DNA from: Candidatus Nitrosopumilus sp.
GTDB lineage: Archaea > Thermoproteota > Nitrososphaeria > Nitrososphaerales > Nitrosopumilaceae
Direction: 5' to 3'
Assembly: GCA_011055585.1 (NCBI GenBank)
Contig: DRGT01000138.1
Span: 1-7,846 of the forward strand
DNA length: 7,846 nucleotides
Shown in pieces: positions 686-7,846 of this stretch. The notes beneath the pieces were generated by a model. That model was not told where the DNA came from. It saw nothing but the letters and a program-made list of their open reading frames with translations, and ran no database searches. The number at the start of each line of letters is the position of its first letter. Position 1 is the first letter of the stretch. The translations under genes were made by a program, and so were the position numbers.

Positions 686-1858
686 TTGTTGAGCAAGCTT
701 GTCGTAAATTGTGAGCCATTAAACAGAATTTTAGATGGAAGGAAAATATCTCAGCAAGAGGTATATGAAATTTTTAATGTTTCTGAAAAAGAACCGACTG
801 AACTTTTTCAAACAGCCCAAATCCTTAGAAAGCAAAACAAGGGAAATTTTGTAAGTTTTTCAAAAAAAGTATTCTTCAATTTGGTTAACTTGTGCAAAGA
901 TACTTGTTCGTATTGTACCTACAAAGCAGAACCTAATGAATCAAAATTATCAATGTTATCAAAAAATGATGTGAATCAGTTGTTAACACTGGCAAAAAAG
1001 TACAATTGTGTTGAGGCATTGTTTGTAACTGGAGAAAATCCAGAACAAAAGTACCAAGAAGCAAGAACATGGTTGAAAACAAATGGTTTTTCAAGTACGG
1101 CAGAATATCTGATTCACATATCTGAGCTTGCCTTATCAAAGGGTCTTTTTCCTCATACAAATGCTGGAAATTTAACTAAAGAGCAAATGAGAGAATTACA
1201 AAAAACTAATCCTAGTATGGGCCTTATGCTTGAAAATGTGAGTGAGCGCCTTATACAAAAAGGAATGCCCCATTATCTAGCCCCTAGTAAAAAACCAAAA
1301 GCAAGATTACAGGTTCTTCAAAATGCAGGGGAATTGGGATTGCCAATGACAACAGGGCTGCTTGTTGGAATTGGAGAAACACCTTATGAAATAATTGAAT
1401 CCATTTTTGCAATAAAAAATCTCAATGATAAATATTCAAACATTCAAGAAGTTATTCTTCAGAATTTTCATCCAAAACCAGATACGTTGATGAATAACTT
1501 TCCATCTGCTGAAGAAAATTATTTTAAAATTGTTGTTGCGCTAACAAGAATTATTCTACCTGAGATGAATATTCAAATTCCTCCAAATCTTTCACCCAAA
1601 TCTTACCAAAGCTTTCTGTCAGTTGGAATAAATGATTGGGGTGGAGTCTCACCATTAACACCAGATTATGTAAACCCCGAATTTTCATGGCCTGAAATAA
1701 AAAAAATTGAAGAAAATTCTAAAAAAGCAGGTTTTAAGCTTCGTTGTAGATTCCCGGTATACCCAGAATTTTTCTCATTTCTTAATTCAGAACTAAAAGA
1801 AAAGATCTCAACTCTTGAAGATAAACAAGGATTTGTCAGGGAGGATTATTGGAAATGA
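686..1858 (+). CDS. cofG: FO synthase subunit 1 (7,8-didemethyl-8-hydroxy-5-deazariboflavin synthase)
   Basis: CofG is a radical SAM enzyme. It closes the deazaflavin ring of FO, the F420 precursor, from the tyrosine-ribityluracil adduct made by CofH. Residues Cys70-x3-Cys74-x2-Cys77 (LCKDTCSYC) form the 4Fe-4S/SAM motif. Other segments typical of CofG follow: TGENPE (115-120), a TTGLLVGIGET strand (222-232), FHPKP (261-265) and the C-terminal NDWGGVSPLTPDYVNPE (316-332). At 390 aa it is somewhat longer than many archaeal CofG proteins because of about 60 residues before the cluster. The start must be TTG at 686 or 689: a TGA at 680-682 closes the frame upstream, and the first internal Met (residue 90) lies beyond the cluster. 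It is the first gene of an operon and overlaps cofH by 4 nt. The family call is secure; the exact start is less so. Confidence 0.95.
   Translation: MLSKLVVNCEPLNRILDGRKISQQEVYEIFNVSEKEPTELFQTAQILRKQNKGNFVSFSKKVFFNLVNLCKDTCSYCTYKAEPNESKLSMLSKNDVNQLLTLAKKYNCVEALFVTGENPEQKYQEARTWLKTNGFSSTAEYLIHISELALSKGLFPHTNAGNLTKEQMRELQKTNPSMGLMLENVSERLIQKGMPHYLAPSKKPKARLQVLQNAGELGLPMTTGLLVGIGETPYEIIESIFAIKNLNDKYSNIQEVILQNFHPKPDTLMNNFPSAEENYFKIVVALTRIILPEMNIQIPPNLSPKSYQSFLSVGINDWGGVSPLTPDYVNPEFSWPEIKKIEENSKKAGFKLRCRFPVYPEFFSFLNSELKEKISTLEDKQGFVREDYWK
1838..1844 (+). promoter_or_regulatory. Shine-Dalgarno sequence deciding the cofH start
   Basis: AGGGAGG lies 10 nt before ATG 1855 and only 4 nt before the in-frame TTG 1849. 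The spacing and the better codon favour ATG 1855. This is the only strong Shine-Dalgarno I see in the window and fits an internal operon gene, while first genes appear leaderless. Confidence 0.65.
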
Positions 1859-3123
1859 CTTTGCAAGTTGAACGCCTAGATATTTTGTTAAAAAATGCAG
1901 ATCCATTAATTTCTGAAACCCTTAATCGGGCATTATCTGACAAAGAAATTTCTGAAAAAGAAGCAGTTAGGCTGTATGATGCCAAAGGAATTGATTTTCA
2001 TCTAGTAGGAATGGTTGCAAATGAGCTTAGAAAACGCAGGATTGGAGATGTGGTAACTTATGTTGTAAATAGAAATATCAATTTCACAAATGTTTGTATC
2101 AAAAGATGCGGTTTTTGTGCATTTAGTAGAGACTTTCGAGAAGAGGAAGGTTATCTTTTACCTGTTGAAGAGATTGTTAATAGAGCAAAAGAGGCACATC
2201 GCTATGGAGCCACAGAGGTTTGCATCCAAGCAGGGTTGCCACCGGATATGGAGTCTAATCTTTATGAGAAAATTTGTAGAGCGATAAAATCTGAGGTTCC
2301 GGAAATTCACATTCATGGGTTCTCGCCAGAAGAGGTACTTTATGGTGCAACAAGGTCTGAAGTTTCCATAAGAGAGTATTTACTCAGACTCAAAGATGCA
2401 GGGGTAAACACTCTTCCAGGAACGGCAGCTGAAATTTTAGATCAACAAATGAGAGACAAGATTTCTCCTGGAAGAATTAGTGTGAAAGATTGGATTGAAG
2501 TGATAACTACTGCCCATAAACTTGGAATTAATTCAACTGCAACTATGATGTTTGGTCATATTGAATCTCCAGAACATCGTGTAATGCATATTGCCAAGCT
2601 ACGTGAAATTCAAAAATTAACAGGAGGTTTTACTGAATTTGTTCCTCTGAACTTTATTGCCAGTGAAGCACCTATGTATAAACACAATCTTCATGATGGA
2701 ATAAGAAATGGCAGTAGCTCTAATGACGCGTTGTTAACTCATGCAATTGCAAGAATTATGCTTAACAATTTCATTGATAATATTCAAATGTCTTGGGTTA
2801 AAGAAGGACAAAAAATGTCTCAACTGCTTCTAATGTGGGGAGCAAATGATTTTGGGGGAACTTTGATCAATGAAAGTATTTCAACATCTGCTGGAGCACA
2901 AAACGGCCAATTAATAAAACCAAAAACCATTAGAAGATTGGTAAGAGAAGTTGGCAGAATTCCTGCTGAAAGAAATACCACCTATAAGATTCTAAAGAAA
3001 TTTGAAAATGGATTAGAATCAACTGATGCATTAGATGATTTAGAAGATGATAAAAAATTTGGTTCCTATTTTGATCTAATTAAGATTAAGAAATTCAAAT
3101 ATCAAAATCCTCGGCGAAATTAA
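1855..3123 (+). CDS. cofH: FO synthase subunit 2 (5-amino-6-(D-ribitylamino)uracil--L-tyrosine 4-hydroxyphenyl transferase)
   Basis: CofH is the radical SAM partner of CofG. It joins the 4-hydroxybenzyl group of tyrosine to 5-amino-6-ribitylaminouracil, the first step of FO synthesis. Numbered from ATG 1855, the SAM cluster is Cys81-x3-Cys85-x2-Cys88 (VCIKRCGFC). It is followed by VCIQAGLPPDM (122-132), IHIHGFSPEE (151-160), LPGTAAEIL (187-195), MMFGHIE (231-237), EFVPLNFIA (261-269), WGANDFGGT (328-336) and RNTTYKIL near 373-380, the order seen in the CofH/MqnC group. ATG 1855 overlaps the cofG stop as ATGA; an in-frame TTG at 1849 would add two residues. After RNTTYKIL there is an unusual tail of about 40 residues, first acidic (DALDDLEDD) and then basic and aromatic, not needed for the core fold. 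CofH rather than MqnC/MqnE is preferred because of the adjacent cofG. Confidence 0.95.
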   Translation: MTLQVERLDILLKNADPLISETLNRALSDKEISEKEAVRLYDAKGIDFHLVGMVANELRKRRIGDVVTYVVNRNINFTNVCIKRCGFCAFSRDFREEEGYLLPVEEIVNRAKEAHRYGATEVCIQAGLPPDMESNLYEKICRAIKSEVPEIHIHGFSPEEVLYGATRSEVSIREYLLRLKDAGVNTLPGTAAEILDQQMRDKISPGRISVKDWIEVITTAHKLGINSTATMMFGHIESPEHRVMHIAKLREIQKLTGGFTEFVPLNFIASEAPMYKHNLHDGIRNGSSSNDALLTHAIARIMLNNFIDNIQMSWVKEGQKMSQLLLMWGANDFGGTLINESISTSAGAQNGQLIKPKTIRRLVREVGRIPAERNTTYKILKKFENGLESTDALDDLEDDKKFGSYFDLIKIKKFKYQNPRRN

Positions 3124-4482
3124 TTGTCAGCCTGTGATAGGGCAATTGATTATGCTGAATCAAAAGGTATTGATGAATGCGAAGCAGTTTCTGTAAAAAG
3201 AAAAATCATCACCATAAGAATTACAGATTCACAAATTGCTGAGGCAAAGCAGAATCAAGAAGAATCAATGGGAATAAGAATTTTTCATACTAAGAAAATT
3301 TCATCGGCGCAAACTACCATTTTAGAAAATTTCAAAAATTCCATTGATCAAGCATTAGAGTTATCCAATCTTACAAAATCAAAGCCATTTTGGAGAAGCT
3401 TGCCTTTTGAATTTAAGAAAAGCTCACTTGAAGGGGTTTTTGATGAAAAACTAAAAGAAATCACAGGTAGTCAAGCGTCTGACATTGCTCAATCAATGAT
3501 TGATTCTTCAGAAAATCCAAAAATTAATTCTATTTCAGGTGCACTAAATATCGTCTCAGAAGAATTTACAATTTCTAATACAAATAATCTCAGATGCACA
3601 GATGATGCAACATACATTTCGGGAATAATCAATGCAGATTCAAATGAGGGAAATCTCCCAGTAAGTGGAATTGGTCAAGCATCTTGTAGAACATTAGATA
3701 ACTTTTCACCAAAACAAATTGGAGAAGATGCAAAAAACATGTGCATTAATTCCATTAATCCCCAACAATGTGAATTTGATACTTGTTCAGTTATTTTTGA
3801 GCCATATTCTGTTGGAGAGATTCTTTCTTTTGTTCTTTCATCAAACTTTAATCGTAAAATATATTCAGAGAAACGCAGTTGTTTCTCTGAAAAAATAGAC
3901 GACGTTGTAGCTGCTGAGAATTTTAGTTTAATTGATGATCCGCATTCTCCAGAAGGAATTGGAAGTAAATCTTTTGATGATGAAGGAGTTCCAACGAAAA
4001 TTTTACCTTTGATTGAAAATGGAGTTTTCAAAAACGTTTATTCTGATTCGTATAATGCGTTTAAAGAAAACAAAGAATCATCAGGTAATGCTCTAAGACC
4101 AGGATCTCCAATGGGACGCAGTGCTGAACCTATTCCTGTACTAGGAACTCATAATCTTAGAATTAAAAATGGTAATTTTTCACGTGATGAAATTATCAAA
4201 GAAACGAAAAAAGGTATCTTGATTGGGCGATTATGGTATACTTATGCAGTAAATCCAATCAAAGGAGATTTTTCATGTACTGCTCGAAGTGGAATTAGAA
4301 TTATTCAGGATGGCGAAATCAAAAATCCAGGAAAACCTGTTAGAATTGTTCACAACATTACAAATTTGTTGCAAAATATTTCCGCCATCGGAAATAATGC
4401 TAGAAATGTTCTGCAGTGGGCATCTTTGCCATCTATTTGCCCAAGTGTTAGAGCAGAAGATGTCAAATTAACCATAATTTAG
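3124..4482 (+). CDS. pmbA: TldE/PmbA-like member of the TldD/TldE metalloprotease family
   Basis: TldD and TldE (PmbA) form a heteromeric zinc protease that in bacteria degrades or matures small peptides such as microcin B17 and CcdA. TldD carries the HExxxH zinc site and TldE lacks it. This 452-aa protein has the family fold from MGIRIF (49-54) onward, a conserved DDP (271-273), FDDEGVPT (284-291), GNALRP (321-326), GDFSCTARSGIRI (381-393) and SAIGNN (420-425). Where TldD would have HExxxH, it reads EPYSVGEILSF (226-236) with no histidines, so it is the TldE/PmbA type and probably not catalytic alone. The TTG start at 3124 directly follows the cofH TAA in the same frame. The first ATG (residue 49) would remove conserved sequence. 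I see no Shine-Dalgarno, so translation may depend on reinitiation from cofH. No tldD lies in the window. Confidence 0.85.
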   Translation: MSACDRAIDYAESKGIDECEAVSVKRKIITIRITDSQIAEAKQNQEESMGIRIFHTKKISSAQTTILENFKNSIDQALELSNLTKSKPFWRSLPFEFKKSSLEGVFDEKLKEITGSQASDIAQSMIDSSENPKINSISGALNIVSEEFTISNTNNLRCTDDATYISGIINADSNEGNLPVSGIGQASCRTLDNFSPKQIGEDAKNMCINSINPQQCEFDTCSVIFEPYSVGEILSFVLSSNFNRKIYSEKRSCFSEKIDDVVAAENFSLIDDPHSPEGIGSKSFDDEGVPTKILPLIENGVFKNVYSDSYNAFKENKESSGNALRPGSPMGRSAEPIPVLGTHNLRIKNGNFSRDEIIKETKKGILIGRLWYTYAVNPIKGDFSCTARSGIRIIQDGEIKNPGKPVRIVHNITNLLQNISAIGNNARNVLQWASLPSICPSVRAEDVKLTII

Positions 4483-4494
4483 GGGATTTTGAGG

Positions 4495-5427
4495 CTAAAA
4501 AACGAAGGTTGCGACTAGATAGACAATATATGCTATTATGAGACCTATTCCAATTGGTCTTGTAATCAAACCAGTTTTCATGACAATAAACAAAACAAGT
4601 GCAAATCCAATCATTACAGCATAATCTACAAAAACTTCAGACACAACTGTTATTCCTGCAATGGTAGCACCAATTCCCATGATCATCAAAATATTATAGA
4701 TATTACTTCCAATGATGTTTCCAATTCCAATATCAGTATGACCTTTACGAATTGCAATTATTGATGTAATCAATTCAGGAAGTGATGTTCCAATTGCAAT
4801 CACAGTTATTCCGATAATTCTTTCTGAAAGTCCAAATGATTCCGCTAAAATTACTGCGTTATCTATAGTCAGTATGGCACCAAAATATAACAAAGTAATT
4901 CCAATGGCTATAAATCCAATTGAGCGCGGATAGATATTTTTTTTCTGAATACTTTCATCTGCGTTATTATCTCTTTGTTTTTTAACATCTCTGTAAATAA
5001 AAATTGTGAAAACAATTAGTAAAACAATTAGTAAAATACCATCATATTGTGAGATTTCGCCATCAATAGATAATGCAATTAATAATAGCGAAACTCCAAT
5101 CATTATTGGTACTTCTTTTCGTATAGTTATTTTATTGACAACTAGTGGAGTAATAATTGCAGCAATGCCAACGACCATACCAACATTAGCTATATTGCTT
5201 CCAATTACATTTCCTAGAATTATTGCACTATGTTCGCCAGCTGCTGCGATGCTTGCGGCTAACTCGGGGGTTGAGGTTCCATATGCAACAACGGTCATAC
5301 CAATAATTAATTTACTAATTCCAAGTTTTTTTGCAATTGAGACACCACCATCTACTAAATAATGTCCACCAATACACAACATGACAATTCCAACTATCGT
5401 TAGTACCGCATTGATAGCAATTTCCAT
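4495..5427 (-). CDS. Na+/Ca2+ exchanger-family (CaCA, YrbG-like) membrane antiporter
   Basis: This is an integral membrane cation antiporter that likely exports Ca2+ in exchange for Na+ (or K+/H+). From ATG 5427 it is 310 aa, with about ten hydrophobic helices in two homologous halves. Each half has the CaCA alpha-repeat signature: GTSTPE (50-55) with GNVIGSNIANVG (72-83), and GTSLPE (213-218) with GNIIGSNIYN (236-245). The acidic residues in both GTSxPE motifs are the expected ion ligands. The halves are joined by a short charged loop (about 145-167), as in prokaryotic members, with no large regulatory domain. A GTG at 5445 would add six residues, but a TTTAAA box at 5451-5456 sits about 27 nt from ATG 5427 and supports that leaderless start. 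Its stop faces the tldE stop across 12 nt. Ion specificity cannot be read from the sequence. Confidence 0.93.
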   Translation of the reverse strand: MEIAINAVLTIVGIVMLCIGGHYLVDGGVSIAKKLGISKLIIGMTVVAYGTSTPELAASIAAAGEHSAIILGNVIGSNIANVGMVVGIAAIITPLVVNKITIRKEVPIMIGVSLLLIALSIDGEISQYDGILLIVLLIVFTIFIYRDVKKQRDNNADESIQKKNIYPRSIGFIAIGITLLYFGAILTIDNAVILAESFGLSERIIGITVIAIGTSLPELITSIIAIRKGHTDIGIGNIIGSNIYNILMIMGIGATIAGITVVSEVFVDYAVMIGFALVLFIVMKTGLITRPIGIGLIIAYIVYLVATFVF

Positions 5428-5450
5428 GCTTGTTAATAAAATCACATTTG

Positions 5451-5456
5451 TTTAAA
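5451..5456 (-). promoter_or_regulatory. TATA-like box of the exchanger gene
   Basis: TTTAAA is centred 26-27 nt from the ATG at 5427, which predicts transcription starting at or next to the start codon. This spacing is the main reason to prefer 5427 over the GTG at 5445. Confidence 0.5.
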
Positions 5457-5567
5457 GGGACATTCTTACGCATAATTCACCATTCTAGCAATCAAAGTAG
5501 ATTTGTCCACAATCCCAAAAGGTGTAAAAAAATAACCTTGATGGATCAACAAAGCACGAGTTTAAGA

Positions 5568-5575
5568 TTAATAAG
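5568..5575 (+). promoter_or_regulatory. TATA-like box of the winged-helix gene
   Basis: ATTAATAA in this stretch is centred about 27 nt before ATG 5598, implying a leaderless transcript. The palindromic element at 5581-5598 fills the space between the box and the start. Confidence 0.45.
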
Positions 5576-5580
5576 GTAAT

Positions 5581-5598
5581 GTACTGTACAGTACTGTA
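5581..5598. promoter_or_regulatory. Operator-like overlapping palindromes at the wHTH start
   Basis: Bases 5581-5594, GTACTGTACAGTAC, are a perfect 14-bp palindrome. Bases 5587-5598, TACAGTACTGTA, are a second perfect 12-bp palindrome overlapping it. The block is also a tandem repeat of GTACTGTA with a 10-bp period, about one helical turn. It ends on the A of the ATG at 5598, between the presumed TATA box and the start codon. A protein bound here would block polymerase recruitment or initiation. The small DNA-binding protein encoded just downstream is the obvious candidate, suggesting negative autoregulation (inference). Confidence 0.6.
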
Positions 5599-5945
5599 TG
5601 ATGAGAGCACGATTAACCTACGTACCCATAGAGGTAGCCGATCAATTCGAAGATTTTATCATAAAAAGAGGCGAACAGGTCCTAGATGCTGTCAAAGCAA
5701 GGACACGTGACTATAGCACACTATCTCTGCTAAAGTTGTTGTACCAACTAAGAGGAAACCCATTGACATTTTCTAATTTATACTCTAAATCAAAGATCAG
5801 AATGAAAAAATCGTTTCTAAACTATCTGCATCTTTGTGTAAATTATAATTTCATTAAAAAAGAACCAGTTGGATCTAATGTGATCTACTCCATTACCGAT
5901 AAGGGTAGAACGATGTTAGATTTGTTCATGCAAAAAAGTAATTAG
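5598..5945 (+). CDS. Small winged helix-turn-helix DNA-binding protein
   Basis: This is a 115-aa protein, probably a transcriptional regulator. The first 35 or so residues form an amphipathic helical segment (PIEVADQFEDFIIKRG, 10-25). They are followed by a winged-helix pattern: helix STLSLLKLLYQL (40-51), a turn with LTFSNLYSKSKI (56-67), a probable recognition helix KKSFLNYLHLCVNYNFIKKE (70-89), and a wing ending in YSITDKGRTMLDLF (97-110). That final strand and helix are typical of archaeal PadR/MarR-like wHTH proteins, but no named family is certain. Two consecutive ATGs (5598, 5601) are possible starts; TATA spacing fits 5598. The operator-like palindrome ends on this start codon. The PAC2 gene follows after 22 nt and may be co-transcribed. 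Confidence 0.8.
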   Translation: MMRARLTYVPIEVADQFEDFIIKRGEQVLDAVKARTRDYSTLSLLKLLYQLRGNPLTFSNLYSKSKIRMKKSFLNYLHLCVNYNFIKKEPVGSNVIYSITDKGRTMLDLFMQKSN

Positions 5946-5967
5946 ACTGAAAATTTTGATGTAAAGA

Positions 5968-6696
5968 GTGCAAGGGGTATTTCCAGAAGCAGAAGTTTAT
6001 GAAATAAACAAAGTCAAACTTAAAAGCCCAATAATTTTTGCTGGTTTTGTAGGAGCAGGGCTGGTTGGTTCCATAGCAATTGAATGTATGATAAAAAAAT
6101 TGCAAATGAAAGAAATTGCATATATGAGATCAAAATATCTTCCCCCATCGACAGTCTTTATGAATGGCAGATTGCGTCACCCATTCCGTTTTTATGCAAA
6201 CAAAGAAGGGACTGTTTGTGCAATAATTTGTGAAATAACACTACGGATGGAAGGCTTGTACACAATTGCAGGTACAATTTTAGATTGGGCCAAAGAAAAA
6301 GGATCAAATGAAATCATAATTCTGGATGGGGTTGCAAGTGATGCACATGATAATAAAGCATATTGTGCTGCAGAAGAAGATCTTTGTAGAGTTATGGCTG
6401 ATAAAAACATCAACATCATTCCTCATGGTTTTATTACTGGTATTGCAGGTGGAATTCTTAATGAATGTTTGATAAGAGAAATTCAAGGAATAGCTTTGTT
6501 AGTCAAAGCAAACGCAATAATTCCTGATCCTGATGCGGCGGCCACTATAATTGAGGCAGTAAATAGATTATATGAAATGCAAATTGACACTGCGGATCTG
6601 AAAAAAGAAAAGGAGAAGATTGCTGCTGAATTAGAAGAGCTTTCTAAAAAATATCTTCAGTCCAAAAAAGAAGAATCTTCTGATATGTACATGTAA
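5968..6696 (+). CDS. PAC2-family proteasome assembly chaperone (PbaB-like) with HbYX tail
   Basis: This 242-aa protein belongs to the PAC2 (proteasome assembly chaperone 2) family. Archaeal members such as PbaB bind the 20S proteasome alpha ring. Visible family features are the glycine-rich GFVGAGLVGSIA (26-37), a strand with IIILDGVASD (116-125), GFITGIAGGILNE (154-166) and IPDPDAAATIIEAVNRL (185-201). Residues about 209-236 are a charged coiled coil (DLKKEKEKIAAELEELSKKY). The protein ends Met-Tyr-Met, which fits the hydrophobic-Tyr-X (HbYX) signal that docks activators and chaperones into alpha-ring pockets. The GTG start at 5968 is the first start after an in-frame TAA at 5962, and the first internal ATG (residue 34) would cut the conserved core. 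No proteasome gene is nearby. The family is secure; the chaperone-versus-activator role is inferred. Confidence 0.88.
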   Translation: MQGVFPEAEVYEINKVKLKSPIIFAGFVGAGLVGSIAIECMIKKLQMKEIAYMRSKYLPPSTVFMNGRLRHPFRFYANKEGTVCAIICEITLRMEGLYTIAGTILDWAKEKGSNEIIILDGVASDAHDNKAYCAAEEDLCRVMADKNINIIPHGFITGIAGGILNECLIREIQGIALLVKANAIIPDPDAAATIIEAVNRLYEMQIDTADLKKEKEKIAAELEELSKKYLQSKKEESSDMYM

Positions 6697-6716
6697 AATT
6701 CAGCTCTAAGCAAATT

Positions 6717-6724
6717 CTTTTATT
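6717..6724 (+). promoter_or_regulatory. TATA-like box of purM
   Basis: CTTTTATT is centred about 27 nt before ATG 6747, again predicting a leaderless transcript and a purM promoter separate from the PAC2 gene. TTCGCATCAA just after it (6723-6732) matches the core of the 19-bp repeat at 64-82 and 618-636, possibly by chance. Confidence 0.45.
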
Positions 6725-6746
6725 CGCATCAAGACCGACTCAACTT

Positions 6747-7775
6747 ATGGTCTTAACCTACAAAAAAGCAGGTGTAGATATAACAAAAATTAAAAAAAGT
6801 CAAGCCACGATTGGCAAAATTATTAAATCCACACATAAATTGCAAAGTAAAGCAAAAGTTGTTCATGGTTTTGGCCATTATGCAGGTATTACTGAATTAC
6901 CTGGAAAGATGATGTTAGCTATCCATACAGATGGAGTTGGGACAAAGGTTCTCATTGCAAATAAAATGAAAAAGTACGACACTGTTGGAATTGATTGCAT
7001 TGCGATGAATGTAAATGATATAATATGTATTGGTGCCACGCCAATTTCTTTTGTTGATTATATTGCTGCAAACAAAAATGATCAGAAAATTTTTAAAAAA
7101 ATTGTTGAAGGTCTAGTAAAAGGAGCTAAAAAGGCCGGAGTTCCTATAGTTGGAGGCGAAACTGCAATAATGCCAGATCTATTTGCAGGCAATGGTTTCT
7201 CATTTGACTTGGCAGGAATGGTTATTGGTTTGTTATCAAAAAAACAGATGGTTCTTGGAAAATCAATCAAAAAAGGTGACGTAATAATTGGCGCAAAAAG
7301 CAGTGGATTGCATTCAAATGGATACACATTAGCAAGAAAGGCTTTACTTTCAAAATATTCTTTAAAAAGTAAGATCAAAGGGATTGGTGTTTTAGGAAAT
7401 GCACTTCTAACTCCGACTGAAATCTATGTAAAACCTGTTTTAGAAATTATTCAAAAATGTAATGTTCATGGATTGGCACACATCACTGGAGGTTCCTTTA
7501 CAAAGCTTTTGAGATTAAAGAAAATTGGTTATGATTTAGATTCATTGCCAAAGCCACCTACAATAATGCAATTAATTGAAGAGCAAGGAGTAAAGAGCTT
7601 AGAAATGTACAAGACCTTTAACATGGGTGTTGGATTTTGTGTAGTAGCTCCTAAAAATGAAGAAAAAAGAATAAACTCGATTTTCAAAAAATTTGGAATT
7701 AAAAGTAGCCGAATAGGAAAAATTATTGAAAAGAAAGGAGTTTTTGTGAATTCTCTAAAACACCAATCCCTTTGA
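6747..7775 (+). CDS. purM: Phosphoribosylformylglycinamidine cyclo-ligase (AIR synthetase), 3' end suspect
   Basis: PurM uses ATP to close the imidazole ring of formylglycinamidine ribonucleotide, giving aminoimidazole ribonucleotide in purine synthesis. The 342-aa frame matches the usual family length. It has HTDGVGTK (60-67), DCIAMNVNDIICIGATP (83-99, with the conserved MNVND), GGETAIMPDLF (136-146), SSGLHSNGYTL (185-195), HITGGSF (245-251) and FNMGVGF (291-297). ATG 6747 fits the TATA spacing. The sequence from 7755 on is an exact reverse complement of 7304-7395 within this gene. Residues 337-342 (LKHQSL) and the TGA are therefore read from the antisense of its own middle, and the true C-terminus is unknown. 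By comparison with other PurM proteins, residues 1-336 should be nearly the whole protein, so only a few residues are probably wrong. Confidence 0.93.
   Translation: MVLTYKKAGVDITKIKKSQATIGKIIKSTHKLQSKAKVVHGFGHYAGITELPGKMMLAIHTDGVGTKVLIANKMKKYDTVGIDCIAMNVNDIICIGATPISFVDYIAANKNDQKIFKKIVEGLVKGAKKAGVPIVGGETAIMPDLFAGNGFSFDLAGMVIGLLSKKQMVLGKSIKKGDVIIGAKSSGLHSNGYTLARKALLSKYSLKSKIKGIGVLGNALLTPTEIYVKPVLEIIQKCNVHGLAHITGGSFTKLLRLKKIGYDLDSLPKPPTIMQLIEEQGVKSLEMYKTFNMGVGFCVVAPKNEEKRINSIFKKFGIKSSRIGKIIEKKGVFVNSLKHQSL
7304..7395. repeat. 92-bp inverted repeat, left arm (inside purM)
   Basis: These 92 bases, coding for about residues 186-216 of purM, are the exact reverse complement of 7755-7846. I compared them base by base and found no mismatch. 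This arm is the authentic coding copy, since it encodes the conserved SGLHSNGYTL segment in frame. Confidence 0.97.
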
Positions 7776-7846
7776 TCTTACTTTTTAAAGAATATTTTGA
7801 AAGTAAAGCCTTTCTTGCTAATGTGTATCCATTTGAATGCAATCCA
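7755..7846. repeat. 92-bp inverted repeat, right arm (fold-back copy at the window end)
   Basis: This is the exact reverse complement of 7304-7395, separated from it by 359 bases, and it runs to the last base of the window. Matching stops abruptly at 7755; outside it, 7754 and 7396 do not pair. The copy has no plausible role after purM: it supplies only the last six codons and the stop of that ORF. Lack of divergence, position at the sequence end and inverted orientation together suggest a fold-back chimera rather than a real duplication. Confidence 0.95.

Follow-up and report, generated by a model that had tools for sequence, protein, structure and literature searches.

The last gene of the 7,846-nucleotide archaeal contig analysed here (the window) is followed by a perfect inverted copy of a part of itself, and this raises the question of whether the terminal structure belongs to the genome or arose in vitro. 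The window encodes CofG, CofH, a TldD/PmbA-like protein, a calcium/sodium antiporter (minus strand), a PAC2-family protein and PurM, besides an unnamed ORF of 115 aa; no tRNA genes and no Rfam families were found in it. The purM gene (phosphoribosylformylglycinamidine cyclo-ligase; TIGR00878, E 5.2e-107) occupies positions 6747 to 7775 on the plus strand and, as read, encodes a protein of 342 aa.

The inverted copy (7755-7846, minus strand) reaches the window end and is the exact reverse complement of 7304-7395 on the plus strand (92 of 92 bases), an arm that lies within purM and is collinear with its relatives. Between the two lies a spacer of 359 nt (7396-7754, plus strand), the native 3' part of purM. 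The arms, their length of 92 bp and the spacer had been given in a preliminary description of this DNA, and every number proved correct on recheck. A second inverted pair sharing at least 14 exact bases is absent from the window, where the next-ranked pair comprises 28 nt at 79% identity. The first inward mismatch of the arms is at 7754/7396; as the pairing continues imperfectly past this point and reaches 7746/7404 (13 of 16 pairs over 7746-7761/7389-7404), a repeat search returns 101 nt at 97%.

What should stand at the end of purM can be seen from a separate public contig of 2,774 bases, whose PurM (P0001, compared at the protein level) is identical to that of the window over residues 1-338 and then ends with LA, giving a native terminus ...NSLKLA. 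Since an intact allele exists on this contig, the end found in the window is the odd one out. The window gene matches the native protein through codon 338 (position 7760). The preliminary description had considered LKHQSL and the stop unreliable; this holds for HQSL and the stop but not for LK, because codons L337 and K338 (7755-7760) agree with P0001, so that the foreign part is confined to codons 339-342 (HQSL) and the stop (7761-7775). Furthermore, neither HQSL nor any other SL ending occurs in the 120 homologues listed out of 1,694 matches in a search of clustered representative proteins. Among these 120, 115 end with LA or IA and five with LS, IV, LK or IS; 116 are 340 aa long, the others having 286, 309, 353 and 360 aa.

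The 80 best genome loci by PurM (71-79% identity; the top three by rank, at 77-79%, include the two 'theta' Nitrosopumilales bins) were used for comparison at the DNA level. The gene order of the window is collinear with them, a single alignment to one locus (L068) extending from 800 to 7760, and in the best alignments collinearity ends at ~7760, i.e., about at the junction. In 79 of the 80 loci purM is read to a normal end of 337-340 aa, and in all 80 the sequence goes on for at least 183 bp past the purM stop. In four relatives of the nearest group (L001, L002, L003 and L075), a long ORF (470-490 aa from one stop to the next) that looks hydrophobic by eye follows ~100 bp or less after this stop; the corresponding continuation is missing in the window. 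None of the 80 loci contains an inverted repeat of at least 25 exact bases (two apparent matches were gaps of 100 N). Searched with the 92-nt arm, 77 loci gave matches of ≥40 nt, all of them within purM, as expected for a copy matching its source, and no such match lies outside purM in any of the 80. The junction itself is found neither in these loci nor in the 120 listed proteins. We also considered whether a linear element might end here in a natural hairpin, and rejected this because the purM block is collinear with the relatives and an intact allele exists. In the remaining locus of this set (L048, purM match from 6001), the frame breaks near the purM end, perhaps owing to a sequencing indel.

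The junction can be read both ways for 7 nt: CTAAAAC (7755-7761, plus strand) corresponds to the expected native end of purM and is at the same time the complement of GTTTTAG (7389-7395, plus strand), and the true breakpoint may be at any position in 7755-7761. The native end is deduced from the relative L002, which has ATTCTCTAAAACT at the junction position; the overlap length of 7 rests on this locus and on the P0001 protein, the base after 7760 being deduced, and would be 6 if the native codon 339 were TTR. When 200,000 random fold-back joins were drawn from this window (separations of 80-1000 nt), overlaps of at least 7 nt arose with P = 0.0009 (~1 in 1,000) and of at least 6 nt with P = 0.0029.

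Microhomology is also found at some fold-back inversions formed in vivo, where microhomology-mediated fold-backs are known to occur. An event of this kind in some of the cells would have produced a real inverted duplication, with a palindrome at the 3' end of purM and a 342-aa PurM with an altered tail. The PurM frame indeed stays open over 342 aa, and the arm may in reality extend beyond 92 nt, since an assembly would break off at that point. Nevertheless, such a duplication is very improbable in view of the intact allele with an identical protein over residues 1-338, the absence of the structure from the relatives' loci and of the HQSL tail from the listed proteins, the zero divergence between the arms and the fact that the sequence ends inside the copy. 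Instead, the terminal inverted copy is almost certainly a fold-back artefact, whatever its origin, and therefore the last PurM residues as read here are wrong. The preliminary description had proposed a comparison with close relatives as a check of its fold-back chimera reading. This comparison favours the chimera (LA end of P0001, no HQSL in 120 proteins, no inverted copy in 80 loci), and the junction microhomology lends the same reading further support.

The artefact resembles the inverted chimeras formed by phi29 polymerase in multiple displacement amplification (MDA). According to a survey of 36.7 million phi29 chimeras, the overlap has its mode at 7 nt and is 3-13 nt long in over 95% of cases, and the joined segments are preferentially 80-280 nt apart, with a range to 5 kb (PMC5372508). 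Lasken and Stockwell (2007) report that 85% of 475 MDA chimeras were inverted, that 337 of 406 inverted chimeras joined segments <10 kb apart, and that priming took place on short complementary stretches (PMC1855051). In our case, too, segments of the two complementary strands of one locus are joined in inverted orientation at a distance below 5 kb (exact 92-nt copy), the complementary overlap of 7 nt (6 at least) falls within 3-13 nt, and the product is absent from the 80 relatives' loci while an intact PurM allele is present (P0001). The separation of ~360 nt, in contrast, is beyond the preferred 80-280 nt, though inside the 5-kb range.

Taken together, an origin in phi29 MDA specifically is probable. 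The fold-back would have formed in vitro on DNA of a Nitrosopumilales archaeon, most likely in the course of such an amplification. A copied strand whose 3' end lay at CTAAAAC, near the purM end, would have left its template; the freed end may then have annealed to GTTTTAG ~360 nt upstream on a strand of the same polarity and been extended backwards through purM. The assembler would later have crossed the junction and halted on re-entering used k-mers, thereby setting the arm at 92 nt. We infer this order of events from the junction, which alone is directly seen.

Inverted overlaps at contig ends are a known kind of structure in de Bruijn assemblies, and neighbouring contigs made by some assemblers share k bases, not k-1. 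In a toy de Bruijn graph of a molecule like the one proposed, the last k-mer not yet used reaches k-1 nt into the inverted copy, which for k = 93 means 92 nt and position 7846; this graph bears out the remark in the preliminary description that assembly soon halts once used sequence is re-entered. The window is like such contig ends in that it breaks off one k-mer length after re-entering bases used before on the opposite strand, yet 92 nt fits k-1 only at k = 93. A published multi-k SOAPdenovo metagenome pipeline works with k = 81, 85, 89, 93, 97 and 101 (PMC5369317, PMC4149020). The idea that the 92-nt arm only reflects the assembler, equalling k-1 only for k = 93 in graphs that share k-1 bases, is suggestive only, as some assemblers share k bases. 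If it is right, the arm length has no biological meaning, and in the molecule itself the false copy may extend further.

A fold-back artefact could also have arisen without MDA, in library preparation, through end repair or through template switching of single strands during PCR, or as a purely computational misjoin. All the evidence for the falseness of the copy fits such an origin equally well, and the arm equals k-1 at k = 93, one of the values in that pipeline (PMC5369317, PMC4149020). However, an overlap of 6-7 nt appears too short for a k-mer assembler to have created the join by itself, and therefore molecules bearing the junction probably existed; moreover, a fold-back with a 359-nt loop should be rare in a short-insert library, where native reads should outvote it unless it was amplified early. 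We regard a source other than MDA as rather unlikely. Recognition of the artefact prevents a false HQSL C-terminus and a false palindrome from entering annotation and repeat surveys. The rest of the assembly may contain similar joins, and breakpoint, overlap and arm length suggest that contig ends of this type might be screened for quickly by three marks: a junction overlap only a few nt long, an arm near the assembler k-mer length and an intact allele on other sequence.

Two further observations concern PurM. When P0001-P0011 were compared with the window protein over residues 313-330, near-identical proteins were found to differ near the C-terminus, having either FKKFGIKSSRIGKIIEK or FKKYGMKSKRVGQIIER; recombination or mixed assembly within the population may account for this. 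A search for a close purM in viral contigs returned only two relatives, at 37%.

The left end of the window raises a question of its own, as it carries repeated sites. The stretch 615-638 is TTAACAGTTCGTATCAAATGTTAA with one mismatch, and 61-84 is TTAACAGTTCGTATCAAATGTTAA with five mismatches, only one of them inside the 18-base core; both have the same orientation. ACARTTCGYRTCAAATGT, the pattern of this clade-restricted site, is present in 61 copies in G001, 62 in G002, 28 in G003, 51 in G006 and 13 in G004 (all Nitrosopumilales genomes) and in one or two copies in three further genomes, the other 18 of the 26 genomes having none; as controls, the reversed pattern gave no match in the 26 genomes and an altered pattern none in 12. 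Over 61 copies the core positions are 90-100% conserved, which partly results from selection (at most 3 core mismatches), and the unselected adjoining positions (TTA before, AA after) are 73-90% conserved; the flanks beyond are not conserved. The layout of the site is ATTAACAGTT-CGTATC-AAATGTTAAT, i.e., inverted arms around an asymmetric 6-bp centre. Core sites of tyrosine recombinases, dif among them, generally have inverted arms with a central spacer, and the left-end site is similar to dif in this respect.

The copies mostly share one orientation. On contigs of G001-G003 that carry two or more listed exact sites, neighbours no more than 5 kb apart point the same way in 63 of 64 cases, and all neighbours taken together in 70 of 74 (median gap 1,261 bp). 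With looser sites (at most 3 mismatches), taken from 100 regions that were chosen for holding sites and of which two overlap, 191 of 222 neighbours within 5 kb are co-oriented. The sites are largely intergenic (92 of 96 with at most 2 mismatches in 20 regions), though ORFs of at least 60 aa cover 79% of those regions. Of the sites, 86 are flanked by an ORF on each side: at 40 of them both ORFs are directed opposite to the site and at 13 both follow its direction, the remainder being mixed; as the strands of neighbouring genes are mixed but uneven, a tie of the site to gene ends is possible. Comparison of 186 inter-site units yielded 54 listed pairs of similar ones; 9 of these pairs, some of them within a single genome, match over their whole length, and the other 45 do not.

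Breaks in homology accumulate at the site. Between 99 regions, 239 of 977 distinct match ends lie within 10 bp of a site, compared to a mean of 22.9 (maximum 36, 200 draws) for random places and of 42.7 (maximum 63) for random intergenic places. The latter are the fairer control, and the excess over them is 5.6-fold. Within 25 bp, 299 ends were counted against an intergenic mean of 68.1 (maximum 94). With the sites masked, the count was 146 of 847 against 17.8 at random places; note that masking itself can break alignments. These breakpoints fit co-oriented units that are rearranged at the sites, three quarters of the breakpoints being elsewhere.

Tyrosine recombinases gave 41 matches, for 30 of which loci were given, and the site lies within none of these 30 loci. 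In G004, no tyrosine recombinase was detected, although this genome has sites. A group of candidate recombinases of 311-318 aa, two in G001 and also represented in G002, shows 53-62% identity together with a shorter relative of 263 aa from G006; in the set of 30 loci it has no members from the site-bearing G003 and G004, and its link to the site is one of co-occurrence only. Archaeal integrons are known, and the main text of the corresponding report has no words beginning with thaumarchae or nitroso (PMC9668308). The repeat is probably not an attC site of an integron: no integron-integrase match exceeded the cut-off in 10 genomes, and the covariation of the arms is no greater than expected for independence. 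Literature searches and a whole-word term search of PMC6563490 gave no description of the site for this clade, which by itself does not prove novelty. Slightly more likely than not, the left-end site is a recombination site belonging to a gene-cassette array, its layout being similar to that of dif.

The left end contains other repeats as well. A second repeated site, AACAGTT TTACCG AACTGTT, consists of perfect inverted arms of 7 bp that enclose a centre of 6 bp (336-355); this stretch (also as 336-380) recurs at up to 96% in G001, G003 and G006. Next to it, 358-618 is a multi-copy segment, of which up to ~260 bp recur with 84-94% identity at several positions of G001, G003 and G006. The segment holds an ORF of 49 aa (443-592) with a zinc-finger-like motif recognised by eye. 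A role of this ORF as a unit between two copies of the site was considered but is not claimed, as most of 16 loci have no site at the ends of homology; relatives of the ORF are present in 7 of the 13 genomes searched.
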